DNA from: Kribbella solani
GTDB taxonomy: Bacteria > Actinomycetota > Actinomycetes > Propionibacteriales > Kribbellaceae
Length of the DNA: 64,000 bases
Reading direction: 5' to 3'
Assembly: GCF_014205295.1 (NCBI RefSeq)
Contig: NZ_JACHNF010000001.1
Location: 3,534,001 to 3,598,000, forward strand
This document shows positions 1,483 through 42,404 of this stretch, piece after piece. The translations under genes and the position numbers were made by a program. Within the stretch, counting starts at the first letter, position 1, and every line of letters begins with the position of its first letter. The notes under the pieces are model-generated. The model was given only the letters and a program-made list of their open reading frames with translations. It ran no database searches and was not told where the DNA came from.

Positions 1483-3234
1483 TCATCGGAGGGTGGCTTT
1501 GCCGATGCTGTCGCGGATTTGGTCAGCGTCTGCGCGGTCAGTCCATGGGGTCATCGTGAGCAGGATGGGTGGGGCGGTGCGGGCCAGCAGTACACCGGTG
1601 CCGAAGGGCAGGGTGCGGATGACGTCGGGCGGGAGGATGGGGATTCGGCGGGTACTGGTGGAGGTGGTGCGGCCGCCGTCGGGGCCGCGGCTCCAGTTGC
1701 GGACTTCTTCGTCGCGTTCGCCGCAGACTGCGGCGAGGTCTTGGAGGTCGCGGGGTTGGGCGGAGCCGCCGAGGATAAGCCTCAGGGTCGCGGCGTCCCA
1801 CATCGCGGCGGCGGCTTGTTCGCCCCAGCGTTCGCGGGCTTGGGCGAGGGATTGGATGACGACGAGAGTGGAGATGCCGGAGCCGCCGCCCTCGGCCATG
1901 AGGCCGGGCAGGGATGGTACGGCGCAGAGGTTGGCGATCTCGTCGAGTACGAGCGCGAGTGGTGGTTCTAGTCGGCCGCCGGGGTTGTGGGCGGCGAGTT
2001 GGCGGGCGGTTTCGGTGATGTCTTCGAGCAGCGCGGCGATGAAGGATGAGGTGGCGCTGGCTCCGGCGCCGGTTCCGAGTAGGTAGATGGTGCCGTGTTC
2101 GCGGATGAAGGCGGCGGGGTCGAGGCCTTCTCCGGGTGGCGGGTCGAAGGCGTGGCGTACGGCGGGATCGGCGAGCGCGGATAGTGCGGAGCGGACGCCT
2201 GCCCAGATGGCGTCGCGTGTGCGGCCGTCCATGCGGACGATGCCGTCGAGGGTGTCGCCCCAGCCTTCGGCGGCGACGTCGGAGCGGTTGAGGATGGTGA
2301 CGGCTTCGGTGGCCGAGGCCGGTTCGAGACCCCACCTGTACAGCTGGGCGATCCCTGCGTCGTCGATCGCTGCAGCATGGAGGAGGCCGCGCAACGCCAT
2401 CTCGGTTTGGCCGTGCCAGAAGGCTCCGTCGGTGACACCGCCTTTGGTGAACCCGGCGCCGGCGGCGAGACCGCTGGCGCGGACCATGGCGGTGGTCGGG
2501 TTCTCGCAGCCACGTACGGGAGACCAGCGAATGCCCTCGACACGGCCGAGACCTTGCGGGTCGAAGACAGCGACTGGGCCGATCTTGCGGCGGAGTTCGA
2601 CGGTGGCGGCGAGGTTGTCGGGACGCGTCGAGGTGGTGACCACAGCACCGGGTGCATCGATGACAGCGCTGATGATCTGATGCAGGCCTTTGCCGGAACG
2701 GGGTGGGCCGAGGACGATGCGTGAGTCTTCGACCGAGGCCCAGCATTCGCGCCCGTGGGAGTGACCGAGGAGCGTCCCGACCTCGGCGGGCGAAGTTGAA
2801 GGCGCTTGCGGGCGGGCGGAGCGTCCTCGCCGCACGACCTGGCACCGCCCGACCGCAGACTCGACCTCGGCACCGGTCGCGAGACCCGGACGCGCAGCCA
2901 GCGCCCGCCGTCGCCTGGCCGCAGTCGAACGGCGGCCGAGCCACAGCCGCGCGCCGACCAGACAGATGACAGTCGGCACGGCCACGACGACGGCCACGGT
3001 TGTCCAGTAGATGGCCGGGCCGAAGTCCCCACTGGTCTGCCCGAAGACAACAGCTGGTTCGCCTGGGTCGAAGACGACGCGCATGGCGTCGATCCAGGGC
3101 GATCGTGGCCAGGCGCCGGTCGTGAGCAGGCAGGCGAGACCGCCGGCCATATAGAAGACGCCGTTGGAGCAGAACAGGATGCCTGCGGCAATGAAGATGA
3201 TCTCGGTGAGATCGCGTGGTGGTCGTTGAGTCAT
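1483..3234 (-). CDS. Type IV coupling protein, VirD4/TraD-like ATPase
   Basis: 583 residues. The N-terminus has two membrane helices (about 11-38 and 76-98), then a cytoplasmic ATPase. The Walker A motif is GPPRSGKG at 176-183 and the Walker B motif LALVLDE at 426-432, followed by a TraM-recognition/TraG-C-like region and a PPDVIRTLPFGTGVLL segment typical of coupling proteins. Coupling proteins bring the DNA substrate to the transfer channel at the inner membrane and use ATP. The gene starts a few bases after the VirB4-like gene ends, within the transfer operon. The length is usual for actinobacterial members. No relaxase partner is visible in the window. Confidence 0.9.
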   Translation of the reverse strand: MTQRPPRDLTEIIFIAAGILFCSNGVFYMAGGLACLLTTGAWPRSPWIDAMRVVFDPGEPAVVFGQTSGDFGPAIYWTTVAVVVAVPTVICLVGARLWLGRRSTAARRRRALAARPGLATGAEVESAVGRCQVVRRGRSARPQAPSTSPAEVGTLLGHSHGRECWASVEDSRIVLGPPRSGKGLHQIISAVIDAPGAVVTTSTRPDNLAATVELRRKIGPVAVFDPQGLGRVEGIRWSPVRGCENPTTAMVRASGLAAGAGFTKGGVTDGAFWHGQTEMALRGLLHAAAIDDAGIAQLYRWGLEPASATEAVTILNRSDVAAEGWGDTLDGIVRMDGRTRDAIWAGVRSALSALADPAVRHAFDPPPGEGLDPAAFIREHGTIYLLGTGAGASATSSFIAALLEDITETARQLAAHNPGGRLEPPLALVLDEIANLCAVPSLPGLMAEGGGSGISTLVVIQSLAQARERWGEQAAAAMWDAATLRLILGGSAQPRDLQDLAAVCGERDEEVRNWSRGPDGGRTTSTSTRRIPILPPDVIRTLPFGTGVLLARTAPPILLTMTPWTDRADADQIRDSIGKATLR

Positions 3235-3240
3235 GGGTAT

Positions 3241-4644
3241 CTACATCCGGGCGTCGGTGTCGAAGAGTTCGACTTCGCGGGTATGGCGTACCAGCTGGAC
3301 GACGAAGGATCTGTTGGGCAGCCGCCACAGCGCGCGGCCTTTCGGTAGCTTGGCGATGGTGGCGATCTCGACGTCGGTGAGGCCGAGCAGACTCGCGGTA
3401 CGGGCCAGCTGATCGGGTTCTTGGCGGAGCATGATTCGGGTTGAGCAATCGGCCAGGAGACCTTCGGCCAGCGCGCGTGCTTCGGAGCCGAGGTCTCCGA
3501 CAGCGGCGAGATCGGACAGGCGGTGGACGATGAGGATGTTCGATACGCCCCAGGCGCGGGAGAGTTTCCACTGTTCTTGCATGCGGCGCAGCAGCGCGGG
3601 ATCACGCATCACTCGCCAGCCCTCGTCGTACACGATGTAGCGGTTGCCGCCCGCAGGATCGGCGACCGCTGCCTCGAGCCACGACGACGCGCACGCCAGC
3701 GTCAAGCGCAGCACCTCGTCGTTGCCTCCGCTGCCGAGCCAGGACGAGTCGAGCGTGACCATTGGCAGTGTCGGGTCGAACTCGGTGGTGGATGGGCCGT
3801 CGAACATGCCGGCCAGGTCGCCGTGCACGAGGCGGCGGATCGCGTGGGCTACCTCGCGGCCGTCGTCGACCAGGTTTGTCGTACGCAGCCCTGCACGTTC
3901 CGCGAAAGCTCGGTCGGGTGTGAAGAGCGCGACTACGACATCCGGGATTGTCGGAGCGGCGTGGTAGGAGACTGTTTCGAGCGCGAGGTCTAGGGCGGTG
4001 TGTTCGACGGCGGCCAGCGGACGGCCGAGTGTTGATTCGGCAAGGGTGCCGAGCAGGGCTCGGCGGCGGGACCAGACGATCCGCTGCCATTCGTCCGATG
4101 CGACCGTGGATGGTCGGCGGCCGGCGTCGAGTGGGTTGAGCCGGGCCGGGAGTCCGGGTCCGAGTTTGATGGTGGCTCCGCCCATTGCTTCGGCTACTGC
4201 GGTCCATTCGCCTTTGGGGTCGCAGGGGACGTAGGCCTTGTGGCCGAGGGCGATGGAGCGGGTGATAAGTGCCTTGGAGGTCGATGATTTGCCGCTGCCG
4301 ATGACGCCTGCGAGCAGTACGTTCGGGTTGGTGATGGCTCTGCTTTGGTACAGAACCCATGGGTCGTACACGAATGAGCCGCCGCTGAAGACGTCAGAGC
4401 CGATGTAGGTGCCGTCTGCACCCAAACCGCCTTCGGCGAGGAACGGGTACGCGACCCGCAGCACCCTTGTAGTTGCTCGATGCGTGTCGACCAGTAGCCG
4501 TCGACCGCCGCGTACGCCCGACTCACCGTCAAGAGCTTCCGCAGCGGTCTTTCGTGGGACGTCGTTGCGCGGGCGTCGATTGGCTTGGCGGGTGGCCTTG
4601 TCTGCGTCGTCGGCCTCGTAGTACGCCGTGTGCCTGGTCGCCAT
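3241..4644 (-). CDS. VirB4-like conjugation ATPase
   Basis: 467 residues. A Walker A motif GVIGSGKSS lies at 113-121 and a Walker B motif RYIVYDE at 335-341, followed by the arginine-rich RIMLRQEPDQL region seen in VirB4/TraC C-terminal ATPase domains. The classical VirB4 N-terminal domain is missing here but is present in the gene just upstream (4644-6080), so the two together probably equal one VirB4, an arrangement common in actinobacterial elements. The ATG overlaps the upstream stop by one base, implying coupled translation. Role: energising assembly or operation of the mating channel at the membrane. Confidence 0.88.
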   Translation of the reverse strand: MATRHTAYYEADDADKATRQANRRPRNDVPRKTAAEALDGESGVRGGRRLLVDTHRATTRVLRVAYPFLAEGGLGADGTYIGSDVFSGGSFVYDPWVLYQSRAITNPNVLLAGVIGSGKSSTSKALITRSIALGHKAYVPCDPKGEWTAVAEAMGGATIKLGPGLPARLNPLDAGRRPSTVASDEWQRIVWSRRRALLGTLAESTLGRPLAAVEHTALDLALETVSYHAAPTIPDVVVALFTPDRAFAERAGLRTTNLVDDGREVAHAIRRLVHGDLAGMFDGPSTTEFDPTLPMVTLDSSWLGSGGNDEVLRLTLACASSWLEAAVADPAGGNRYIVYDEGWRVMRDPALLRRMQEQWKLSRAWGVSNILIVHRLSDLAAVGDLGSEARALAEGLLADCSTRIMLRQEPDQLARTASLLGLTDVEIATIAKLPKGRALWRLPNRSFVVQLVRHTREVELFDTDARM

Positions 4645-6080
4645 CAGAGTCCGATGCCGAACGGGAGGGCGGCGGCGAGGAAGCCTTCCATTTGCTGGCC
4701 GACGAGGCGGCGGAGGTCGAGGAGGGCTTGGCTGGCGGCGATCTCGATCTCCATGCAGGCGTCGTCGAGCGCCTCGTCGGTGTCGGCGGATACGACGAGC
4801 AGGCCGAGCCAGCGGACATCGCCGTGACCGGCGGCGAGGTCGCGTTCGCGTTGGGCGACGTCGGCGTCGAGCTGGCGGTCTTCTTCGGATTCCAGTTGGC
4901 CGATGCGGTTGCGCGTGGCTCGGTCGCTGACTCGCTCAACCTGGTGACGCCGTGCATCGCGGAGTGCTTTGGCCATCGGGATCGGCTCTAGTACCAGGGT
5001 GAACGTGCGGCGAATGCCGGGCTTGAGTAGTAGCGGGCTGAGGAAGGACGGGGTGGCGCGAAGCCGGGGCCATTCGGTGATGACGTACACGCGTTGCAGC
5101 GACGAGTCCGTCCGCAGTTGGTCCCAGCCGACGTCGACGGCCAGCGGGCCGGCGTCGGCGGCATCGAGTGACTGCGCTTTCTGGAGTGTTCGGGTCGCGG
5201 CTGGGTCGAAGGCGGTGCGCAGGCTGACGGCCAGGTCGCCTGAGCCGAGCCAGGCGCCGGTCACGCCTGCGGCGGCGAGTGAGGTCTGGAAGGCGCGTGC
5301 TTCGGATTCCAGTACGGTGGTGGCGCCGGCCATTCCGCCGCCATGTTTGCGTACTTCGCGGGATACGGTGTCGAGGTTCACCGCGAAGCTGAACAGCGTC
5401 TCGTGCCGCGCGGCGGCGGGTGCGGCTCGTTCCAGTAGTTCGGTGTAGATCGCGCCGGCAGGCGTACGTGGATCGACGTGCCGTTTCGTGGCCCATTGGC
5501 CTAGTTCGTCACCTGGGTCCGGCAGGGTGCGTTCGAGGATCTGGGCTCTGGCGATTCGGTTGCCGTTGCACAGGCTGGCGATGAGCCTCCCGTACGCCGC
5601 GACGCGTCGGTCCTGCTCGTCAGCGTTTTGCAGGAGATGGGCTGGACCTTCGATCCTTGCGACCGCGATCAGGCGCCGTCGGCGTGGATCGTGGACGACG
5701 CCGAATCCAGTACTCGACGTCATGATCCGTAGTGCGCTCCCCTCGCCGGGCAGCTGCAGACGGCCGAGCTTGCGTGGCTCCATCACGCGGGCGCGATGGG
5801 ACTGTTGGCCGCGCAGTGAACGCCACGAGTGCGTTCCCATCAAGACAAGCCATCGGTATGTCGGCAGTTCCTCGATGCGGGCGAATGCGACGACGACGCA
5901 GATCGGAGCGGTCAGCAGTGCGGTGAACTTTGCCGGTGCCGGCAGTTCGGTTGCGATTGTCAAGGTGACGAGAGTGACTGCGGCCAGTACGAGGCCGACC
6001 TGCATCGGGCGCAGGCCGAGCAGGACAGCGTGCCGCTCGGGGCGTGGGAAGCGGGTCGACAGCGGATCGGGATTTGTCAT
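4644..6080 (-). CDS. SCO6880-family conjugation protein (PrgI-like plus VirB4 N-terminal-like)
   Basis: 478 residues. Two adjacent hydrophobic helices near the N-terminus (about 27-45 and 50-68) follow a FPRPERHAVLLGLRP motif, as in the SCO6880/PrgI-like family. The rest is soluble and resembles the VirB4 N-terminal domain: a long alpha/beta region with FSFAVNLDTVSREVRKHGGG and a C-terminal helical part ending at GIGL. It overlaps both neighbours (4 bases with the VirB6-like gene, 1 base with the VirB4 gene), so the three are translated as a block. It probably links the channel to the VirB4 ATPase. The family assignment rests on motif order and context. Confidence 0.82.
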   Translation of the reverse strand: MTNPDPLSTRFPRPERHAVLLGLRPMQVGLVLAAVTLVTLTIATELPAPAKFTALLTAPICVVVAFARIEELPTYRWLVLMGTHSWRSLRGQQSHRARVMEPRKLGRLQLPGEGSALRIMTSSTGFGVVHDPRRRRLIAVARIEGPAHLLQNADEQDRRVAAYGRLIASLCNGNRIARAQILERTLPDPGDELGQWATKRHVDPRTPAGAIYTELLERAAPAAARHETLFSFAVNLDTVSREVRKHGGGMAGATTVLESEARAFQTSLAAAGVTGAWLGSGDLAVSLRTAFDPAATRTLQKAQSLDAADAGPLAVDVGWDQLRTDSSLQRVYVITEWPRLRATPSFLSPLLLKPGIRRTFTLVLEPIPMAKALRDARRHQVERVSDRATRNRIGQLESEEDRQLDADVAQRERDLAAGHGDVRWLGLLVVSADTDEALDDACMEIEIAASQALLDLRRLVGQQMEGFLAAALPFGIGL

Positions 6081-7285
6081 CGTGTTCCACCGTCCTCGTC
6101 GCCAGCGTCGCTTGACGTACGACCCGGATCACCAGACTCATCGACCGGTACGTGTGTCCAGGAGACGGTGCTGGAAGTCCGGGTTGCGCGGTCGTCCTCC
6201 GATGCAGAAGGTGGAGATGCCGCCGAGTACGTCTCGTCGCCAGGCTGTCCCTCAGTGGCTCTATCGCTTCCGGTCGTGGTGTCGGCAGAGTGCTCGTGCT
6301 TGGAGTCGTCGCCCACTACCGGACCGCTGTCGTTCTTCCCGCTTGAGCCACTGAAGTGGTGCGCGCTCCAACGCTGCGCTTGTTCCATCCGCTCCTTCAC
6401 CATCGACGGCCCTGCGGCTCCTTGCTGGAGCGCATGAAGCGCGCTGTGACTCTGATCGCCTGCCCAGTGAATGAACGAGAAGGTCGCAACGGGCGCGAAC
6501 GCAGCCATCGCGAACAACAGAACCCCGGTCAGAAACGTCCCGACACTCGCACCGGCGCTGGTCCCCGGAGCACCCACGGCCGACAGACCGAGCGTGAACA
6601 CCACCGCCATCGCAACCTTCGAAAACAGCAACGCACCGATCACCTCGATCCATCGCCGCAGCCAATGCCGCGTCGCCGACCAGGTCCAACTGGCCAGCGC
6701 AATCGGCGCGAAGACGACAAACGCAACCAGCGCGACCTCGCGAATCAACATCACGAAGTACAACGCCGCCGTCGCGATCAGGCCGAACGCGACCGCGATG
6801 GCGAGAAACCCACCGAGTGTTCCGACGCTCAGCAGGGCCGTGACGTTCAGCAGCCGCTCGATCCCTGGCCGGGTCGTCGGGTTGCCGAGAATCGCGGCCG
6901 ACATCTGGTCGACCGCCTTCCCGCAAGCGCCGACAATCCCGACCGCGAACGGTACGCCGGCGGTCCCGAGTAGCGCCCCGAAGATCGCTTGACCCAACCG
7001 AGCTGGCTCCCGCCGAATCGCCGCCGCCGCACACTGGATCACGAACGCGACCACAAGCAAAGGCAATGAAATCGACACGACCAAATGAAGGTTGTCGGTC
7101 CACCACTGCTGGCTGAAGTCCGGCGTCGTACTCGAACTGAAACTGTCGAACACGTACGTCGTCAACTCACTCAGCCCTTTCGCCAGCCAGCCGACGAACG
7201 AATCCCAGACCGAATCAGTAATCGCGTCTTTGCCCGCCGACACCGCACAGGCTCCCGGGTTGATCAGACACTGCATCCAAGGCAT
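6077..7285 (-). CDS. VirB6/TrbL-like polytopic membrane protein
   Basis: 402 residues from the ATG at 7285 (MPWMQCLINPGAC), chosen because GAGG lies 8 bases upstream; a TTG at 7309 would overlap the preceding gene. Several membrane helices follow a periplasmic-like N-terminal segment: LVVSISLPLLVVAFVI, a pair near FGALLGTAGVPFAVGIV, LGGFLAIAVAFGLIATAAL, VALVAFVVFAPIALASW, and two more before residue 290. The C-terminal 120 residues are polar, low in complexity and rich in Ser/Asp, probably cytoplasmic. The layout matches VirB6-type inner-membrane channel components. The C-terminal tail is poorly constrained and unlikely to be catalytic. Confidence 0.8.
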   Translation of the reverse strand: MPWMQCLINPGACAVSAGKDAITDSVWDSFVGWLAKGLSELTTYVFDSFSSSTTPDFSQQWWTDNLHLVVSISLPLLVVAFVIQCAAAAIRREPARLGQAIFGALLGTAGVPFAVGIVGACGKAVDQMSAAILGNPTTRPGIERLLNVTALLSVGTLGGFLAIAVAFGLIATAALYFVMLIREVALVAFVVFAPIALASWTWSATRHWLRRWIEVIGALLFSKVAMAVVFTLGLSAVGAPGTSAGASVGTFLTGVLLFAMAAFAPVATFSFIHWAGDQSHSALHALQQGAAGPSMVKERMEQAQRWSAHHFSGSSGKNDSGPVVGDDSKHEHSADTTTGSDRATEGQPGDETYSAASPPSASEDDRATRTSSTVSWTHVPVDESGDPGRTSSDAGDEDGGTR

Positions 7286-7295
7286 CAGGTACGCC

Positions 7296-7607
7296 TCAAC
7301 CGATGACAATGCCGCTGAAGAACTTGATCAGGCTGTTCGCCGAGCCGATCAAGATGGCTGCCCCCAGCGACGCCAGTACGCCGATCCGTCCTTTGCTCGC
7401 GAAGTTCGGGTTGCCGTTGATGTTGCCCAAGGCCCATGCCGCGGCCGAGATGATCAACGCGACCACGCACGTGACGAGCGCGAACGTGATGGTCGCGCCG
7501 GCCAAGGTGCGTACTTCGGGCAGTCCTGGCAGCCCGTTGGTGTTCGGGGCAACGCCCGGGTCCTGCGTGATCACCAGGTGCCGGGACAAGACACTGTCTT
7601 TGAACAC
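7296..7607 (-). CDS. Small VirB2-like/DUF6112-type membrane protein
   Basis: 103 residues starting at GTG 7607 (VFKDSVLSRHLVITQ), selected because GAAGGA lies 6 bases upstream. After a polar segment with GVAPNTNGLPGLPEVRTL there are two hydrophobic helices (ATITFALVTCVVALIISAA and GVLASLGAAILIGSANSL) separated by a short Gly/Asn/Lys loop. Size, two-helix layout and position before the VirB6-like gene fit the pilin-like VirB2 slot of actinobacterial elements. No pilin processing site is obvious. DUF6112 membership is from memory of the family shape and needs a profile search. Confidence 0.72.
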   Translation of the reverse strand: MFKDSVLSRHLVITQDPGVAPNTNGLPGLPEVRTLAGATITFALVTCVVALIISAAAWALGNINGNPNFASKGRIGVLASLGAAILIGSANSLIKFFSGIVIG

Positions 7608-7617
7608 GTCATGTCCT

Positions 7618-8274
7618 TCAGGTAGTGGGATAGCTGGGCGGCGCCCAACCGAGATAGGTCGCGCCCCACTTCGACTCGATGACGCCGAAGTCCACGAGGT
7701 ACACACCGCCCTCGCCGGGGACCGAATCGCCAATGTCGTTCGAGACGATGCGGCCGTTGCCGACGTACGTCGCCACGTGCCCGTACGGGCCGCCGGTGTC
7801 CCAGAACACGAGTGCGCCGGTTGGTGGCTGGCGATCACGCAGATGTGCTTGGCTGGTCGCGATCATGTGGCGCCATTGCTCGGCGGCCGAGAAGTACCCT
7901 GCACGTGGCCGGCCCCAGATGTTTGCGGCCAGGCGCGCGCAGAGCTGGTAGTAGCCGTGGCTGCCGACCAGGCGCAGCGCGCGAGGGACGGCCTCGTCCG
8001 CTCCTGGGAGGCGCCCGCCGTGGTCTGTCGGCATCTTGCAGCTGACTGGTGCAGCCCCGGCAGCCGGTGCATTGGCAGACGACCCACCGGCGAGTGACGC
8101 ACTGGCCGGCCGCGCACCCACGAGCGGCGCACTCGTGGGCCGCGCACCTACGAGCCTCGCCCTGCCGCAGGCGTCGGCATCGCTCTCCGTGCTGCCCGCG
8201 GCGAGAGCGATGGGCGCCACGAAACCAGCGCCACCAGCAAGCAGGGCCGTAGCGGCGATGGTCTTGACGATCAC
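7618..8274 (-). CDS. Secreted CHAP/NlpC-type peptidoglycan hydrolase of the transfer system
   Basis: 218 residues from a GTG at 8274 that overlaps the upstream TGA (GTGA), so translation is coupled. Residues 1-25 form a signal peptide (KTIAATALLAGGAGFVAPIALAAG). A linker with two near-identical LVGARP(T/A)SA repeats follows, then a hydrolase domain with a catalytic-type Cys in YQLCARLAANIW, a His in GHVATYVG and a polar residue after it (IVSNDIG). Such enzymes open the cell wall locally so the mating channel can pass, like VirB1-class proteins. CHAP versus NlpC/P60 cannot be settled by eye. Confidence 0.8.
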   Translation of the reverse strand: MIVKTIAATALLAGGAGFVAPIALAAGSTESDADACGRARLVGARPTSAPLVGARPASASLAGGSSANAPAAGAAPVSCKMPTDHGGRLPGADEAVPRALRLVGSHGYYQLCARLAANIWGRPRAGYFSAAEQWRHMIATSQAHLRDRQPPTGALVFWDTGGPYGHVATYVGNGRIVSNDIGDSVPGEGGVYLVDFGVIESKWGATYLGWAPPSYPTT

Positions 8275-9053
8275 GGCGCTACCTGCGACGTCGCGGACCA
8301 GAATCGGCACAGCGGCGTACACACAACGGCCACCGCGGCCTGCCGATCCAGAAACCTCGTGTCGGTGTCGCGGATGACGGTCTGCTTGCCGCGTACGACG
8401 TAGGCGTGCCACCCGTTCGGAGCCTGACTGCGGTTCACCATCGCGGCGAGATCCGGTGTGATCTCAGCCGTGATGCTGGTGGCGATGGCGCGCGCCTTGT
8501 ACGACTGAAGCTGGTCCCACTCAGGCCATTGGGGCAGCAGGCTCTTCGCGACCTGCGGCGCGGCCGAAGCCGGGTCAGCGAACACCGTCACCGCGTTCTG
8601 CCAGTCGACGTAGCTGTGCCGGGTCGTGTCGTATGTCCAGATCGCCCGGGCATAGGCGATCGCGAACTCGCGGGGATCAGTGGTCGTCGGCCGCCGCCAG
8701 GCATCCAGTTCCGCCGGCGGTTCGCTTGGGATGGTGGTGCCGTGGACGCCCGGCGTACCTGACGGCTCGTCCGGGCTCTGCCAGCGGGTGACGAGCGTCC
8801 AGACCAGTGCGATCACGCCGACGACGACCAGCACCGGGACGACGGCCTTGAATCGGATCGGGGACTTCACAGCGGCTCCTTTCATGGAGACTTCGGTACT
8901 GCGCAGCCACGCGTACCCAGCGGTCGCCAGCGGCCGTGGGATGAGCCGCAGCGCGCTGAGGACTCCGAGCGCGAACCTGAATTGCGCGCGGTAGTAGCGG
9001 ACAAGCCAGTGATGGCGGGGCATGCGGAACTGGCCGTTCGGGATGTTCGTCAT
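8271..9053 (-). CDS. VirB8/TcpC-like bitopic conjugation protein
   Basis: 260 residues. The ATG at 9053 (MTNIPNGQF) has GAGG 6 bases upstream; a start at 8885 (MKGAAVKSP) is possible but has a weaker site. A single strong membrane helix spans about 72-90 (FKAVVPVLVVVGVIALVWTLV), followed by a Pro-rich stretch and an extracytoplasmic domain of about 150 residues with alternating helices and strands, the layout of VirB8/TcpC NTF2-like proteins. The C-terminus ends in a Cys-containing segment (VVCTPLCRFW). It sits directly before the wall hydrolase gene. The fold is inferred from topology and position. Confidence 0.65.
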   Translation of the reverse strand: MTNIPNGQFRMPRHHWLVRYYRAQFRFALGVLSALRLIPRPLATAGYAWLRSTEVSMKGAAVKSPIRFKAVVPVLVVVGVIALVWTLVTRWQSPDEPSGTPGVHGTTIPSEPPAELDAWRRPTTTDPREFAIAYARAIWTYDTTRHSYVDWQNAVTVFADPASAAPQVAKSLLPQWPEWDQLQSYKARAIATSITAEITPDLAAMVNRSQAPNGWHAYVVRGKQTVIRDTDTRFLDRQAAVAVVCTPLCRFWSATSQVAP

Positions 9054-9101: not shown

Positions 9102-9827
9102 TCAGGCAGCAGCCAGCCACTCGACGCCGGCCGTCCGGCGGTGGCCGCGACGGCTTGATCCGCCGAAAAACCGCTGGTCACGCCCGGCGACGGCCCGAAT
9201 CCAGCGCCGCACGACCGGGTCAGCGAAGACCACCTCCGCAGACTCCCCCAGCGCCAGCCTGGCCAACGCCGACATGTGACTGGCGCCGCCGCGCAGCAGC
9301 CAGGCCAAGCCGTCCGCTTGCGCTCCCGTCGCGCCGGCTAGGCGTACGCGAGCGACAATGCCTGCGCGATAGAACGGCGGCCCGTCCGCAGCCGCCCTGA
9401 TCAGGCGCCGGCCGACAGACGGCGCCAGTCCCTCCGCTGTCAGTTCCAGTGCGATCCGCTCCAGGTGGTACCCGAGAATCGGCCACTGCGCCGCCTCGGC
9501 GTCTGGCAATCGCCAAGTCAGCGGATGACGCCGGCGTCGAACTACCTCAGCCCGTACCGCATCCTGCAACCGCCACCGCACCAAGTTGGCCAGGTACCCC
9601 CACGACATCCCGCTAGCAGGCGGATCGACCGCCAACTCCATACAGCGCTCCCAGGCGATCACCCGCGCCATCTGCGCCGCCTCGTCCGAACCGAGCGCCC
9701 TTCGCAGCCGGTGCGACAGCGGTACGACAATCCGGGCCTCGATCCCATCAGCCAGCCGGCGCGACGGCCCCGCCGCCCACCCCGAACGCTCCGCCTCGGC
9801 GATCAGTACCTCCAGGTCAACGTCCAT
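9102..9827 (-). CDS. Helical protein of the transfer operon, possibly sigma-region-2-like
   Basis: 241 residues from ATG 9827 (MDVDLEVLIAEAERSG), with GGGAGA upstream. It is all-helical by appearance. The segment AWERCMEL, then SGMSWGYLANLVRWRLQDAVRAE and a run of four Arg (about residues 90-135) resembles region 2 of RNA polymerase sigma factors, but no region 4 helix-turn-helix follows. The rest is Ala/Leu/Gly-rich with LLRGGASHMSALARLALG near the end. It lies between primase A and the VirB8-like gene, same strand. A DNA- or polymerase-binding regulator of the element is speculation; otherwise unknown. Confidence 0.6.
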   Translation of the reverse strand: MDVDLEVLIAEAERSGWAAGPSRRLADGIEARIVVPLSHRLRRALGSDEAAQMARVIAWERCMELAVDPPASGMSWGYLANLVRWRLQDAVRAEVVRRRRHPLTWRLPDAEAAQWPILGYHLERIALELTAEGLAPSVGRRLIRAAADGPPFYRAGIVARVRLAGATGAQADGLAWLLRGGASHMSALARLALGESAEVVFADPVVRRWIRAVAGRDQRFFGGSSRRGHRRTAGVEWLAAA

Positions 9828-9876: not shown

Positions 9877-11061
9877 TCAAGGACTCCTAGAGATATCGCG
9901 CGGATCGCCGTCCACATCGTCGGCATCGAAGGCATGACCGGCGTCCGTCTCTGGCGATCTCGAACGGCTACGCGCCGCGCTCACGCCGTCGATCCCGGAG
10001 CTGGACTGTACGAGGAGGGGATTGCCTACTCCGCCGCCTGGCCGCGACGGCCTCCGTCGGCCCCGCGACCGTCCGCGGCTGCATCGGCCGGCCGCCGCGA
10101 TGATCTCGTTCGACACGATCTGCTCGTCGAGCTGCACCGCGGCCGCAAGCCGCGCGACCTCCTCAGCAACCCGCCCAGCCGGCAAACTCGCGATCAGCGG
10201 CGCAACCGCCCGCACCGCGTTCACCTGACCACTGACGTGATCGAGAACCCGGCTCCACTTCGCAAGCTCGGTCTCGATCGCGAACTCGACCAATGGCCTC
10301 GCAGTCGTCAGCACATCAACTAGAAGTCTGGGGTTGGCCACATGGAGCGAGGCCGGGTCTGCTTTGTCAGGGAGCCGCGCGAAGAGCACATCGTCGAACA
10401 CGTCCCGCAGAACCGGCAGGCTGCGTACGGCGCCAGCTCGCCCACCGACATCCCCGTCCAACGCGACAATGACCGCATCTGTCCAGGAGTGCGCTCGTAC
10501 GATGCGTGCCTGCTCGGGCGTGATCGCCGTACCGCAGCAGGCCACGCCGACCCAGTCATCACCCGCGAGCCCGACCGCCGGCGCATCCATTGCGCCCTCG
10601 ACAAACACCGGAATCGCACCCGCACGCAGCCGATCGAGCTGGGCATCGAGCCCGACCAGCGTCTGCGCCTTCGCGAAGATCTTGGTCCTCGCCGTGTTCA
10701 GGTATCTCAACCGGGCACCCCGGGCACGACCGACAAACCCCACCGGTCGCAGCTCGCGATCGTGAGCAACAAACACGACCCGATCCCGGAACCGATCAAC
10801 CAGATAGCCATTACGCGTCACCGAAGCCAGCCCGGCCCTCACGATCGCCTGGTCATCGAACCCTGCGCGACGCATATGGCCAACCAGACGCGACCAGCCC
10901 TCAGGCGCGTACCCGACACACCACTGCGAATCACAGGCCAAGAGTGCACCCAGACCACGGTCCCGAAGATGCGCCGCTGCCCAGCCATCGTGATGCTCGA
11001 CGAGTTGTTGCCGGTAGAACGAGGCAGCCGCGGCATGAGCTTCGTACAGCCGCGTGCTCAC
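9877..11061 (-). CDS. DnaG-type primase with intact TOPRIM motifs (copy A)
   Basis: 394 residues from a GTG (MSTRLYEAHAAAASFYR) that overlaps the stop of copy B. It has a DnaG-like catalytic-core N-domain (about 5-110, with a WCVGYAPEGW segment like those in DnaG proteins) and a TOPRIM domain with the conserved Glu in FVEGAMD (E155) and the metal-binding pair in ALDGDVGG (D202, D204). No CHC2 zinc finger precedes it. The C-terminal tail is Arg/Ser/Asp-rich. It would make primers for replication of the element after transfer. Of the three tandem paralogues it is the only one that keeps all TOPRIM acids. Confidence 0.8.
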   Translation of the reverse strand: MSTRLYEAHAAAASFYRQQLVEHHDGWAAAHLRDRGLGALLACDSQWCVGYAPEGWSRLVGHMRRAGFDDQAIVRAGLASVTRNGYLVDRFRDRVVFVAHDRELRPVGFVGRARGARLRYLNTARTKIFAKAQTLVGLDAQLDRLRAGAIPVFVEGAMDAPAVGLAGDDWVGVACCGTAITPEQARIVRAHSWTDAVIVALDGDVGGRAGAVRSLPVLRDVFDDVLFARLPDKADPASLHVANPRLLVDVLTTARPLVEFAIETELAKWSRVLDHVSGQVNAVRAVAPLIASLPAGRVAEEVARLAAAVQLDEQIVSNEIIAAAGRCSRGRSRGRRRPSRPGGGVGNPLLVQSSSGIDGVSAARSRSRSPETDAGHAFDADDVDGDPRDISRSP

Positions 11062-11936
11062 AGGTCCAGCTGGCGGTCTGGCGGCTCGTACTCCACGCCC
11101 GCGGCCGCGTGGCCGATCCGATACGTCAGCGCCGGCCGCGTCGTCGTCAACAACTCCTGCAACGCCCGTGGCCCCGCCTCGAACGACACCAGCTCCCTCG
11201 GGCTACACGACAACGCGACCGCACGGACCTGGTCGTAGTACACCGCCAGATCAAGCAAGTACCCCGATGTCAGCTTCTGCCGATGCTCATCACCGTGAAG
11301 CAGAACAACGACCTTGTCGCCCATCGTGAACTTCCGCAGCATCCGCGCCTGCGCAGTCGACAAGCCATCACCGACCACCGGAATCCCAGCCCACTGCCCA
11401 TCCAACCGCCGGCTCATCTCCGACACCGCGATCGCATCCACCGGATCATCCACCAAGACCGGCGTCGCACCACCACGCAGAAGATCCAGTTGTTCCTCGA
11501 TCCCCACCAGAACGTTCGATGCCTGGTGGAGCGCCATCCCCGTACTGAGGAACTGAACCTTCCCGCCCAGCTCAACCCCGACGAACCCGACCGCTGACAA
11601 CCGCGCATCACGCGCGACCAGCATCAGCCGATCGCGATGACGATCGACCAGCTCACCATCCACCCACATCGCCAACCCGGCCCGAACCATCGCCGACGAT
11701 CCGAACCCCTCAGACCGTAAATGATCCACCACACCGTTCGCGGTGTCCGGCGCGTACCCCACTCGCCACATCGAACCCGCAGCCAACACCTGCTCAACAC
11801 CTGCATCCTTCAAGTACTGCACAGGCCAACCGCCCGCCCGCAGCAACTCCTGCCGAAAGAACCGTGCCGCCGAAGCATTTGCCTCCAGCAACCGACGCCG
11901 CTCCTCCGCCGTGATCGCAAACCCGGGATCATTCAC
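11058..11936 (-). CDS. Primase-like paralogue with altered TOPRIM motifs (copy B)
   Basis: 292 residues from GTG 11936 (VNDPGFAITAEERRR), preceded by GAGG at 5 bases. It aligns by eye with copies A and C: ANASAARFFRQELL, GYAPDTANG, RHRDRLMLVARD. The TOPRIM Glu motif reads LVDDPVD (E replaced by D163, the following Gly by D164), and the later DxD reads LLHGDEH (first Asp replaced by His214). Metal-dependent nucleotidyl transfer is therefore probably lost or changed. The stop overlaps the start of copy A, so A depends on translation of B. A regulatory or structural partner of the active primase is a reasonable but unproven role. Confidence 0.75.
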   Translation of the reverse strand: MNDPGFAITAEERRRLLEANASAARFFRQELLRAGGWPVQYLKDAGVEQVLAAGSMWRVGYAPDTANGVVDHLRSEGFGSSAMVRAGLAMWVDGELVDRHRDRLMLVARDARLSAVGFVGVELGGKVQFLSTGMALHQASNVLVGIEEQLDLLRGGATPVLVDDPVDAIAVSEMSRRLDGQWAGIPVVGDGLSTAQARMLRKFTMGDKVVVLLHGDEHRQKLTSGYLLDLAVYYDQVRAVALSCSPRELVSFEAGPRALQELLTTTRPALTYRIGHAAAGVEYEPPDRQLDL

Positions 11937-12033
11937 TGAGACCTCCACAAAACCAGACAATTCCGGTCTCGAAGGTCCCGCCGACACACCAGCTATCGAA
12001 CCCAGATCACAACATCCAGGAACCCACGACAAC

Positions 12034-12936
12034 TCACAAACTTGGACCTGGCAACGGCGGCTCAACATCGGTGCCCCGGGCCGGAAAGACCCCACGACCA
12101 GTGGCCCGATAAGTCATCAACGGCCGCGAACTCAGCAACAACTCATTCACCCGCTCCGCGCCAAGATCCCGCTGCGCGATACCAGCCAACGATTCGCCAG
12201 GAGGCACCTCAACCGCCCGCACCCTGTCGAAGAAGAACGCCAAGTCCAGCAGGTAGCCGGCTGTCTGATTCCGCTCGGCCTGGCTCCCACCCAGCACGAC
12301 AACCACCTTGTCACTCGTACTGAACTCCCGCAGCATCTTCGCCTGCGCAGTCGACAATCCACCACCACACACCGGAATCCCAGCCCACCGCCAACCCGCC
12401 GCGCGCCCAGCATTCGACACCGCAATCGCATCCACCGGCGCATCAACAATCACCGGATGCGCACCGCTGGCAAGCAGCTCCCGCTGCTCCTCCACCCCAA
12501 CCAACACATTCGCCGGCCGATGAACCACCGTCACCGGACTCACCGACCGCGCCACCCCATCCGGCCCGATCCCCACAAACCCCACCGCCGCCAACCGCCG
12601 ATCACGCGCCACCAACATCAACCGATCACGATGCCGATCAACCGCATCCCCAACCTCGTTCCAGGCCATCAACCCAGCCTTCGCCAGCGTCGCGTACCCG
12701 AACCCCTCCCGCCGCAAATGATCAACCAACCCCGACCACATCCGCGGCGCATACCCAACCTTCCACACCGAATCAGCCGACAACACCGACCCCGCCCCAT
12801 GCGCCCTCAAATACTCCAACGGCCAACCACCAGTTGCCCGAAGCAACTCCCGCCGAAAGAACCACGCCGCTGCAGCATTCGCGTCCAACACCCGCCGCCG
12901 CTCATCCGCCGACAACCCAAACCCCTCAGCACCCAC
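12034..12936 (-). CDS. Primase-like paralogue lacking TOPRIM acids (copy C)
   Basis: 300 residues from GTG 12936 (VGAEGFGLSADERRR), with GGAGG five bases upstream; longer frames reach 13038. The N-domain matches copy B closely (ANAAAAWFFRRELL, GYAPRMWSG, RHRDRLMLVARD). The TOPRIM Glu position reads IVDAPVD (D165, A166), and the DxD site reads VLGGSQA (G216-S218), so all acidic metal ligands of the second motif are gone. It lies first of the three in transcription order. Loss of catalysis with preservation of the fold suggests a structural, DNA-binding or inhibitory role within a primase complex. Confidence 0.72.
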   Translation of the reverse strand: MGAEGFGLSADERRRVLDANAAAAWFFRRELLRATGGWPLEYLRAHGAGSVLSADSVWKVGYAPRMWSGLVDHLRREGFGYATLAKAGLMAWNEVGDAVDRHRDRLMLVARDRRLAAVGFVGIGPDGVARSVSPVTVVHRPANVLVGVEEQRELLASGAHPVIVDAPVDAIAVSNAGRAAGWRWAGIPVCGGGLSTAQAKMLREFSTSDKVVVVLGGSQAERNQTAGYLLDLAFFFDRVRAVEVPPGESLAGIAQRDLGAERVNELLLSSRPLMTYRATGRGVFPARGTDVEPPLPGPSL

Positions 12937-13041: not shown

Positions 13042-13323
13042 TCACATCAAACCGATGTCGCGCCCTACCTCCTGCTGTTCCAACAACTCCTTCGCCGAAA
13101 TCGACGACGCACGCCGACGCCGCACCACAGTCGGCTCACGCTCATCAAACGGTGACGACGACCCAGCCCAAAGCCCCGCCGACCGAGCCAACTGACCACC
13201 CACCACATCAATCGCAGCATCAACCAACTCAATGGCCTGCCGAACACTCCACCCAGCGCCGCCCAGAGACCCCGTCGCCTCCTGTGCCTCGCCAGCTTTA
13301 CAACCCTGCCCACCTAGATACAT
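13042..13323 (-). CDS. Small hypothetical protein upstream of the primase genes
   Basis: 93 residues. The frame reads ELVDAAIDVVGGQLARSAGL, then a charged C-terminal part with a four-Arg run (VRRRRASSISAKELLEQQEV). It ends just before primase copy C and runs the same way, which supports its being a gene. The first 20 residues are Gly-rich and may not be translated. No ribosome site is convincing and no family is recognised. It may be a small accessory or DNA-binding factor of the element. Confidence 0.42.
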   Translation of the reverse strand: MYLGGQGCKAGEAQEATGSLGGAGWSVRQAIELVDAAIDVVGGQLARSAGLWAGSSSPFDEREPTVVRRRRASSISAKELLEQQEVGRDIGLM

Positions 13324-13407: not shown

Positions 13408-14310
13408 TCATGGCTCTAGCTCCTGGCCGGCTGACTCTGCCACGAATGAATCAATGCCAATCTGGCGAGACGCGCCTTGTGGACTAGCAGGAGGAATATC
13501 CGCCGGCAGGTAGAGCTCGGCGGCGGCGAACAGACGATTCGCCGTGGCTACAACCCGGCCGCCCAACGTCTCAATCTGCCGAACAGGCGACGCCCTGCCA
13601 ACTATGCCCGTCGTCCTCGCCATCAGGTCCGCCGATGGCCGCCCTGGCAGACACCCGAAGCGCGAGAGCAGCACGTACGCAGCCGACGTCGCTTCCAGCC
13701 TCGCTACACCATGACAGACCGAATCACGAGAACCCTTATGCATCTTCAGATGAGCCAACTCATACGCCAAGCCCATCGTCGCCAAAGGCAGCTCAAGATC
13801 ATCCGCGACAACGATCAAACCCTGTCGACGAACGGTCTCCGCACCGCCGCCGCCTGGCGCCAGGCGTCCCCGTTCAACGCGGTAGCCTCCCGCAGCCGCC
13901 ACGTGCTCCAAGGCAGCAAACACATCGTGCGACTGCCGACCTGGGGACGACTCAATCGGCCGACCGTCGGTTTGACTGACATCCCACACGGTCGCCACAG
14001 CATGACCCTGCACCGGCCCAACCGAACGCTCAGCCTCCAGCGCCGGGGCGACAATCCGGATACCAGAAGCACCACGAGCAATCCGCCGACCTCTACGCAG
14101 CCAACCCTGCCGCCCCTCAACCATCTCCGCACCCGGCATCTGCAACTTGATCAGCACCACGTTACGAAACGACTGATCTCGCAACACCGCAGCCGCATCA
14201 AGCCACCGAACCCACGCCGCATCTGACCAGCTCCGCCGAAGCTCAGCCTCAACCGCCCCACGAAGATCGCCAACCGTCACCCGAACTCGGTTCACCTGCC
14301 CGAGCATCAT
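13408..14310 (-). CDS. ArdC-like anti-restriction protein with altered zinc site
   Basis: 300 residues from ATG 14310. The N-terminal part (about 1-125: WVRWLDAAAVLRDQSFRNVVLI, GWLRRGRRIARGASGIRI) matches the ArdC N-terminal ssDNA-binding domain. A zincin-like domain follows, with the usual HExxH in LAYELAHLKMH reduced to YELAH (183-187): the first zinc-binding His is Tyr, while H187, H191 and E206 (LEATSAAY) remain. ArdC proteins protect incoming single-stranded DNA from host restriction. It is the first gene of the transfer operon, consistent with early expression after entry. Whether the Tyr abolishes metal binding is open; anti-restriction by ArdC is thought to rest mainly on the N-domain. 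Confidence 0.75.
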   Translation of the reverse strand: MMLGQVNRVRVTVGDLRGAVEAELRRSWSDAAWVRWLDAAAVLRDQSFRNVVLIKLQMPGAEMVEGRQGWLRRGRRIARGASGIRIVAPALEAERSVGPVQGHAVATVWDVSQTDGRPIESSPGRQSHDVFAALEHVAAAGGYRVERGRLAPGGGGAETVRRQGLIVVADDLELPLATMGLAYELAHLKMHKGSRDSVCHGVARLEATSAAYVLLSRFGCLPGRPSADLMARTTGIVGRASPVRQIETLGGRVVATANRLFAAAELYLPADIPPASPQGASRQIGIDSFVAESAGQELEP

Positions 14311-14791: not shown

Positions 14792-15565
14792 CTACCGTTC
14801 CCGGTCGAGTTCTCGCAGCATGGTCAGCACAATGTCCGCGGCATCGGTCTGCGCCGCTCGCTTTGAAGACTCGGTCGCGGTTGCTTCCACCCGCTTGTCG
14901 TCCTCGGACCTTCGGACTGCAAGCACACAGGTGAAAGCTGGGCGATGTGCCGGGCCGGTTCTGCTGTGCGACCATTCGGGCGGCGCCAGATGACCGGCCT
15001 GAGCGAGCTCGTGGACGGCCGAAATCGGCGAGGAGGTCCGGCGGGTTCGCAGAAAGCCAGTGATCGTCTGAGTCGGCGCTGACTGTGCGCGAGAGACAGC
15101 GCCCATGCGAGGCGCATCGATGGCGATGCCAGCTGACTTGAACCAGTTCCGAATTACGCCCGTCGGCAGGCCAAGCATGTCACCGACATCGCGGACGCTC
15201 ATCCCGTCTCCGATGACGTGACGGTGCGCCTGCTCGAACAAGGAGTCGAGGATAGCCGCGTCGTCGGCAGGAAGGCCCAGGTCTTCAGCATGGAGCGCGG
15301 CCGCGGCTTGCAACTGCCGATGTGCGCGCATGAGGCAGACCAGACTGCAGAAGAGTCCAAGACGTCGCTGCATCTGCTCGGAACCCAAGGCCCGATGAAT
15401 CGTGTACCACCCGCCCGGGACGAACGTCCCTTCTTCACGACGGCCGCAGCTTCGGCACCAATAGCCGCGTGGGTCGTGTGGCGTTTCTCCGTCCCATCGC
15501 AGACCGGATGCGTATCTGCCCTCGCGGGCATCGTCGCCGTCAGCCAGCGGATCAGTGATAGACAC
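14792..15565 (-). CDS. Zinc-finger/HTH protein with C-terminal dsRNA-binding-like domain
   Basis: 257 residues from GTG 15565, with GGAGGG upstream. Three parts are visible. First, a Cys-rich N-terminal region (C37, C40, C73, C77) that could bind zinc. Second, a helix-turn-helix at 123-147 (MSVRDVGDMLGLPTGVIRNW). Third, a segment at 180-252 reading PISAVHELAQ, then TGPAHRPAFTCVLAV, then SSKRAAQTDAADIVLTML, which follows the alpha-beta-beta-beta-alpha pattern and signature residues of a double-stranded-RNA-binding motif. It is divergent from the SNF2 helicase gene, with a palindrome between them. It may be a DNA-binding autoregulator that also senses structured nucleic acid; that role is inference. 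Confidence 0.68.
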   Translation of the reverse strand: MSITDPLADGDDAREGRYASGLRWDGETPHDPRGYWCRSCGRREEGTFVPGGWYTIHRALGSEQMQRRLGLFCSLVCLMRAHRQLQAAAALHAEDLGLPADDAAILDSLFEQAHRHVIGDGMSVRDVGDMLGLPTGVIRNWFKSAGIAIDAPRMGAVSRAQSAPTQTITGFLRTRRTSSPISAVHELAQAGHLAPPEWSHSRTGPAHRPAFTCVLAVRRSEDDKRVEATATESSKRAAQTDAADIVLTMLRELDRER

Positions 15566-41380: not shown

Positions 41381-42090
41381 ATGTCCAGAGCGCCACTGCC
41401 GATCGGAACCTGGGGAAGCATCTCCACTCGCGTCGTCAAAGCCGACGCCAAGGGCAAGCCTGTCAAACACCTCACCAAGGCCAACTTCCGCGACCACGAC
41501 GGGCACGTCCGAGACATAACCGCGTTCGGCAACACCAAAGTCGGCAGCCGAGCGCAGACTCCTCCAGAAGCTCCAGGATCGCGCCAGGACCAAAAAATCC
41601 GGCGAGCTGACCGCGATGCACAAGGTCAACCACCTTCTCGACCTCTGGGAGGAGCTATTCGAGGAGATGGTCACCGACAACACCAGGTCACCCACCTCCC
41701 TGGACACCTCCCGCCGCGTCCTCAAGAACCACATTCGCCCCGCCCTCGGCGAACTCCGTATCGGCGAAGCCACCACCCCACGCATCGACACCGTCCTCGC
41801 CAAGATCAAGAAGAACGCAGGAGCACCGACGGCGAGGACCTGCCGCGGCCGTCCTGTCCGGCGCCATGAAACCCGCCGGCCGCTACGGCGCCCTCTCCGT
41901 CAACCCCGCCCGCGAAGTCGACACCATCGAAGGCAAGCTCAGGTCCCAACCCCGAGCCCTGACCGGCGAAGAAGTCACCCTCCTAAGGAGGAGCCTGTCT
42001 GCCGACGAACGAGCTGTCCAGGCCGACCTCCCCGACCTGACCGCCTTCATGCTCGGCACCAGCGTACGCATCGGCGAATCCCTCGCTAGA
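41381..42090 (+). pseudogene. Tyrosine-recombinase integrase relic
   Basis: Integrase pieces lie in successive frames. First LPIGTWGSISTRVV and ANFRDHDGHVRDITAFGNTK; then, after a shift, LLQKLQDRARTKKSGELTA and RVLKNHIRPALGELRIGEA; then, after a second shift, AVLSGAMKPAGRYGALSVNP and RALTGEEVTLLRR, ending LTAFMLGTSVRIGESLA. The final piece includes the first catalytic Arg (VRIGE). The remaining catalytic residues (K, H-x-x-R, H/W, Tyr) are missing because the 3' end is deleted. It starts about 250 bases after the tRNA-Lys fragment, the usual place for an integrase next to its att site. It cannot be active. Confidence 0.78.
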
Positions 42091-42404
42091 TCACGAATTC
42101 ATCAAGACGCTCGTGGCCACATCTACGACATCTACGACATCTACCCTATTACGGAAGCTCTTCTACGACGAGCGTGAGCACGAGGGACGTTCATCGCGAA
42201 GGTGAACCGCGGCCGCGGGGGCCTCAGGCTTTGTGCAATAGCCGGGTCCCGCACGTCCGCCATAAGCGACGACTGAAACCGGGCGATGATTGCCTTAGGC
42301 CACAAAGGCGGCGGATCTCGCGATTGGTGGACGTCGCCCATCGGTACGCCGAGCTACGGGAGTGGGTGTCTCTCGGATCCCGCCCCCGAGCTCCGGCGGT
42401 GTGG

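Follow-up and report, generated by a model that had tools for sequence, protein, structure and literature searches.

The window analysed here, a 64,000-nt stretch of Kribbella solani DNA (positions 3,534,001-3,598,000 of a 7.85 Mb genome), carries three primase-like genes, named A, B and C, between a T4SS transfer cluster and a gene for an ArdC-like protein. Their description in the first-pass annotation as three consecutive genes on one strand, with B overlapping A, was borne out; they lie on the minus strand and the order of transcription is C, B, A. The features of the region are the following:

1483-9053, minus strand: T4SS transfer cluster, with the same order in related loci
1483-3234, minus strand: coupling protein of the T4SS cluster (Pfam TraG-D_C 4.5e-27 and T4SS-DNA_transf 2.2e-21 in the cluster)
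3241-4644, minus strand: VirB4-like ATPase, named by position and weak matches
4644-6080, minus strand: PrgI/SCO6880-like, the PrgI name given by position and weak matches
6077-7309, minus strand: TrbL-like (weak TrbL match, 0.012)
7296-7607, minus strand: small membrane protein of the T4SS cluster
7618-8412, minus strand: CHAP/NlpC hydrolase (CHAP 1.6e-6)
8271-9053, minus strand: membrane protein of the T4SS cluster
9102-9827, minus strand: conserved downstream gene, sigma-region-2-like by eye, with no Pfam or NCBIfam match
9877-11061, minus strand: A, GTG start; predicted catalytically complete DnaG-type primase core without zinc domain, with C-terminal helical region and acidic tail
11058-11936, minus strand: B, P-family primase paralogue, predicted dead; GTGGAGGT lies before its GTG start at 11936
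12034-12936, minus strand: C, P-family primase paralogue, predicted dead; TTTGGAGGGT lies before its GTG start at 12936
13042-13323, minus strand: small ORF upstream of the P genes, with homologues in about 15 related loci (blastp) and an acidic tail like that of P
13408-14310, minus strand: ArdC-like protein with an M78/IrrE-type region (window copy: weak M78 match, E 0.15; no ArdcN match)

Throughout, P denotes the dead primase copies (B, C and their relatives) and A the catalytically complete type. The starts of B and C are consistent with the conserved start of their homologues, [MV]-x-x-x-G-F, and with the Shine-Dalgarno sites, and B runs 4 nt into A, the shared GTGA holding the B stop and the A start. 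B and C are full-length as paralogues, with 51% identity to each other and 40% and 38%, respectively, to A; the C-terminal helical region of A is missing from both. The N-domain helix reported as common to the three proteins is indeed present in all of them, with the qualification that B and C are alike and A is less similar (HAAAASFYRQQL; RFRDRVVFVAHD). No structured RNA was found in the region.

Profile searches matched A to PF08275 (DNAG_N) at 5.5e-22, with 78.7 bits against a cut-off of 26, and to Toprim_2 at 3.8e-8, above the cut-off. TIGR01391 was also matched (1.3e-39 over model positions 111-405), yet the 136 bits fell below the NCBIfam dnaG equivalog cut-off of 283.6, and A reads as a DnaG-like core and not as the cellular DnaG. 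Since this match begins at model position 111, A would represent the DnaG polymerase core without the zinc domain, and no Pfam or NCBIfam profile match to the zinc-binding domain (CHC2) was obtained for A. For B and C, DNAG_N was the sole match (1.7e-9 and 1.2e-9, both above the cut-off) and no Toprim family was hit. A profile of 23 dead copies retrieved DnaG structures, including the M. tuberculosis DnaG polymerase domain, at 5e-25, and a profile of 18 A copies retrieved DnaG structures at 1e-53. AlphaFold2 models had pLDDT values of 75 and 76, from alignments of five sequences. The A model resembles the DnaG RPD, and the model of C, with a core pLDDT of about 75-93, matched DnaG domains in Foldseek at E about 1e-12 and DnaG 5w33 with a VIA Z of 23.3 (rmsd 3.2, 266 residues), the other Z values being 13.4 for T7 primase-helicase and 9.2 for single TOPRIM proteins. 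Because of the DNAG_N matches, the dead-copy profile and the similarity of the C model, the relation of B and C to DnaG is not attributable to chance. The suggestion that both retain the DnaG/TOPRIM fold agrees with profile search and structure prediction alike, the RPD fold being assigned to C by its model and to B by sequence only. The fold of the DnaG RNA-polymerase domain (M. tuberculosis 5w33-5w36, E. coli 1dd9/3b39) matches nearly all of A, B and C, with the catalytic set in A; unlike DnaG, all three are without the zinc-binding domain, and B and C, besides being predicted dead, are without the C-terminal helical region.

We compared the active sites of 20 A and 30 P sequences, with positions given in A numbering. 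Residues R112, K131, E155, D159, D202, D204 and D235, which we take from established DnaG biochemistry to form the NTP and metal site, are kept in all 20 A sequences except for D204, which is kept in 18 and is Asn in two. Among the P sequences, R112 (replaced by I, V or L), K131, E155 and D235 are each kept in 0/30, D202, the first Asp of DxD, is kept in 3/30 and is any of ten residues across the family, and D159 is kept in 29/30; at E155, 21 sequences have Asp, eight Asn and one Ser. The residues named earlier for the window (E155, D202 and D204 in A; VDDPVDA and LHGD in B; VDAPVDA and LGGS in C) were correct, and the catalytic positions of B read VDDPVDA/LHGD/ALSCSP. B and C have lost basic NTP-site residues besides the acidic ones, and both are predicted to be catalytically dead. 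The P family has in addition invariants of its own that are missing from most A sequences and from DnaG, for example the C residues E64, E184 and P222, which occur in 30/30 P; uniform loss of the catalytic residues together with this new constraint argues against progressive decay. A remodelled TOPRIM site with a different metal-dependent activity could be read from the nearly constant Asp at position 159 and from the Glu that has mostly become Asp. Since the first DxD position is variable, the DP Asp is lost throughout and Asn or Ser may stand at the Glu position, P appears to have no constant metal site, and we regard such an activity as very unlikely.

Trees were built without the catalytic columns and rooted on A-type cores from other genera. 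All 30 P sequences form one clade (support 100/100) nested inside the A-type sequences of the genus, indicating that catalysis was lost once, in the common ancestor of P. B and C are sisters within this dead clade, grouped with single P copies of other elements, and the two P copies of loci L050/L056 form a separate clade (100/99). Two lineages thus seem to have doubled the dead copy independently of each other, so that triplets arose twice, a pattern that gene conversion between tandem copies could mimic in part. The stepwise loss of catalysis postulated in the first-pass annotation has to be abandoned, as the dead copies have one origin and a uniform loss and it is the doubling that occurred twice; a stepwise decay from A to B to C is ruled out by the tree.

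The dN/dS ratios were about 0.07-0.35 for P and 0.12-0.27 for A pairs (NG86 values, unreliable where dS > 1), and in two element pairs the P identities were 96.6% and 89.7%, against 92.0% and 80.4% for A of the same pairs. P is under purifying selection. Relaxed selection, the outcome that would have pointed to decay, was not found for B and C, with values well below 1, and their reading as pseudogenes is ruled out by these ratios. Some loci do carry broken copies (L033-L040, L053, L055), as would be expected of decaying duplicates or of an assembly or reading artefact; set against intact copies in many genomes, the low dN/dS and the conserved start signals, this explanation is scarcely credible. 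In locus L041 (4171-5631, genome G026) an in-frame TAG lies inside the A gene and both P copies are open.

A survey of related elements, proposed earlier, found the arrangement again, at the corresponding position, in about 15 Kribbella T4SS elements. The gene order is ArdC-like gene, small ORF, zero to two P, A, 9102-type gene and T4SS genes, and in nearly all T4SS loci the 9102-type gene comes directly after A (or A-P); in L051, L052 and L054 the order is reversed, with A before P. Three elements (L029, L030, L031) have A only, so P is not universally needed. Five solo P genes, in four genomes that each have A elsewhere, lie outside T4SS clusters (L027, L028, L057-L059) and are also under purifying selection; all five are without Shine-Dalgarno, and each adjoins a conserved HTH gene and a PPC-like gene. 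No P was seen outside the genus in order-wide (294 genomes) and phylum-wide (396 genomes) samples, which do not exclude its presence; the matches in these genomes resemble DnaG, A-type cores standing alone or long frames of relaxase type, as classed by frame length and the reading of a few loci. Viral contigs held no relatives, and phage records gave one weak partial match only.

In 12 of 13 loci the A start lies -4 to +22 nt from the P stop, the exception being L060 with 675 nt, and A has no five-base Shine-Dalgarno; the P genes inside elements have GGAGG-type sites, that of B being GGAGG itself. From this stop-start spacing we infer translational coupling between P and A. Because P has a strong Shine-Dalgarno and A would be reinitiated at the P stop, P should be made together with A and in an amount at least equal to it. 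Coupling and gene order favour a putative A-B-C hetero-oligomer. The same coupling and expected excess of P would also suit a role of P as inhibitor or timing factor, under which A would be silenced in the donor and freed after transfer, and dead enzyme copies and paralogues are common as regulators in other families; elements with A only manage without P, however, and we consider this role improbable.

A TrwC relaxase gene lies about 9 kb left of the window, so that the element comprises T4SS and relaxase. Elsewhere in the Propionibacteriales, stand-alone genes code for A-type cores, in loci L087 and L088 also with a TrwC relaxase gene, and in another family of the order (L090:4802-10486, genome G120) relaxase, helicase and primase core are fused in one protein of 1,895 residues with Pfam TrwC (2e-89), AAA_30, DNAG_N (3e-26) and Toprim_2. 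The primase part of this fusion retains VEGPLDA, DGDLAG and DDP. Many further A-type matches lie in frames of about 1,800-2,100 residues, their fusion content being read from L090 alone, and Nocardiopsis plasmid proteins annotated MobF also bear an A-type core. The occurrence of A relatives near, or fused to, MobF relaxases in other Actinobacteria supports a role of A as conjugative primase of the T4SS element. RSF1010 MobA-RepB' is likewise a relaxase-primase fusion. The MobF-helicase-DnaG core fusions resemble the Kribbella element in combining a primase core and a relaxase in one conjugative element, and differ from it in that the Kribbella genes are separate and dead copies are absent from the L090 fusion.

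The ArdC-like protein has a metalloprotease motif that reads YELAH in the window copy and HELAH in L025:5545-6654 and L061:6040-7122, and its L051 homologue matched Peptidase_M78 (7e-5) and ArdcN (2.7e-4; 21.6 bits against a cut-off of 22.6). There is a second ArdC-like copy about 33 kb to the left of the window. An acidic PP/GP-x-L C-terminal tail is common to four adjacent gene families, those of A, P, the small ORF and the ArdC-like gene, and its last residue is often Leu, Met or Pro. Scored with a P-derived matrix against their own shuffled tails, the ArdC-like protein reached z 4.7, the small ORF 5.5 and A 3.6, values that overstate significance because the scored members are related; T4SS parts gave z ≤ 2.0, and the tail was not found on relaxases. 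Among 842 called genes in the loci scanned, these tail-bearing proteins account for most of the best non-primase scores. An SSB-tail-like reading was rejected, the final Phe being missing in nearly all. A 449-residue protein of L028 (3397-4746) has the same type of C-terminus. The tail is possibly a secretion or docking signal. The TraC1 and Sog primases are transferred into recipients, and TraC1, whose N-terminus resembles ArdC, is fused to an ArdC-N domain (PMC5512222, PMC7213743); in one study ArdC was needed in the recipient and its export was not required (PMC7213743). By analogy, the tail-sharing proteins would fit known conjugation cargo. The Kribbella module resembles RP4 TraC1 and IncI Sog in having a TOPRIM primase on a T4SS element, with an ArdC-like gene where TraC1 is an ArdC-N fusion; it differs in that its primase is stand-alone, of DnaG_N type and accompanied by dead paralogues.

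The presence of the tail on the ArdC-like neighbour could also mean that B and C have a function independent of A, being single-strand-binding or anti-defence proteins that the T4SS delivers and that are co-made with A since both work on the incoming strand. The solo P genes maintained outside T4SS clusters point the same way, as do the DR-x-R arginines at A positions 90 and 92, retained in 25/30 and 27/30 P. Co-divergence of A and P beyond the T4SS background was not found (partial r 0.18, p 0.12), the distances co-varying no more than history shared with T4SS genes would predict, which lends no weight to a specific A-P bond; P co-varies better with the neighbouring 9102 protein (0.66), and its stronger co-variation with T4SS genes than with A would also suit independent action. 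Against this, the core pI has a lower median in P (6.5) than in A (8.6), which with the lost basic NTP-site residues disfavours canonical DNA binding, the stop-start coupling ties P to A in all but one of the loci, and A is present in every genome with a solo P. Independent action is possible, if on the unlikely side.

We favour, with a probability of about one half, the reading that B and C serve A as non-catalytic partners and are perhaps delivered along with the T-strand. A would prime second-strand synthesis on the transferred single strand, as conjugative primase of a T4SS-type integrative element. B and C would be paralogues of A retained as partner subunits after the single loss of catalysis, one dead subunit being enough in many elements and gene doubling in two lineages giving the set of A and two P. 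P would be translated from its strong Shine-Dalgarno, with A reinitiated at the P stop, and might work in trans for the missing zinc domain or for a second DnaG subunit, holding the template, positioning A or activating it. Through the shared tail, the primase proteins P and A may be recognised together with the ArdC-like and the small protein, and the set possibly exported with the T-strand. The sequences themselves document the origin of P, its dead site, the selection on it, the arrangement for coupling and the conserved gene order, whereas physical complex, activation of A and co-delivery are what we infer from these arrangements. The fullest form of the proposal, a heteromeric primase exported by the T4SS, with two dead paralogues of the catalytic subunit that arose twice independently through duplicating a single dead ancestor and stand in for the zinc domain in trans, all subunits bearing a C-terminal export signal new to actinobacterial conjugation, is rather doubtful.

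The component parts are of known kinds and the novelty lies in their combination. In the literature searched we found no description of dead primase paralogues in conjugative elements, in agreement with the earlier remark that no conjugative element with such an arrangement had been described. The primase-like domain of Twinkle is a dead TOPRIM primase fold retained for a non-catalytic replication role (PMC7231222) and the sole example of dead copies among DnaG-type primases found in that literature; it is fused to a ring helicase, whereas B and C are separate paralogues of an active primase. In Archaea, PriX acts in initiation as a non-catalytic member of a heterotrimeric primase and is a diverged homologue of another subunit (PMC12019639), but it belongs to the unrelated archaeo-eukaryotic primases and derives from PriL, not from the catalytic subunit. 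A maintained and repeatedly doubled dead set beside a live primase offers a natural test of what priming needs without a zinc domain, and the tail-sharing proteins are a defined candidate set for export by the little-studied T4SS of Actinobacteria.

No CHC2 gene that could supply the missing domain separately was detected among the neighbours scanned. Upstream of the ArdC-like gene, the minus-strand gene at 14792-15565 encodes a protein in which a double-stranded-RNA-binding motif (PF00035, 9e-7) is accompanied by Cys pairs like those of a zinc ribbon. At 41381-42177 there is a fragment resembling a tyrosine integrase that is intact in L057 (2248-3678), possibly an old element end.
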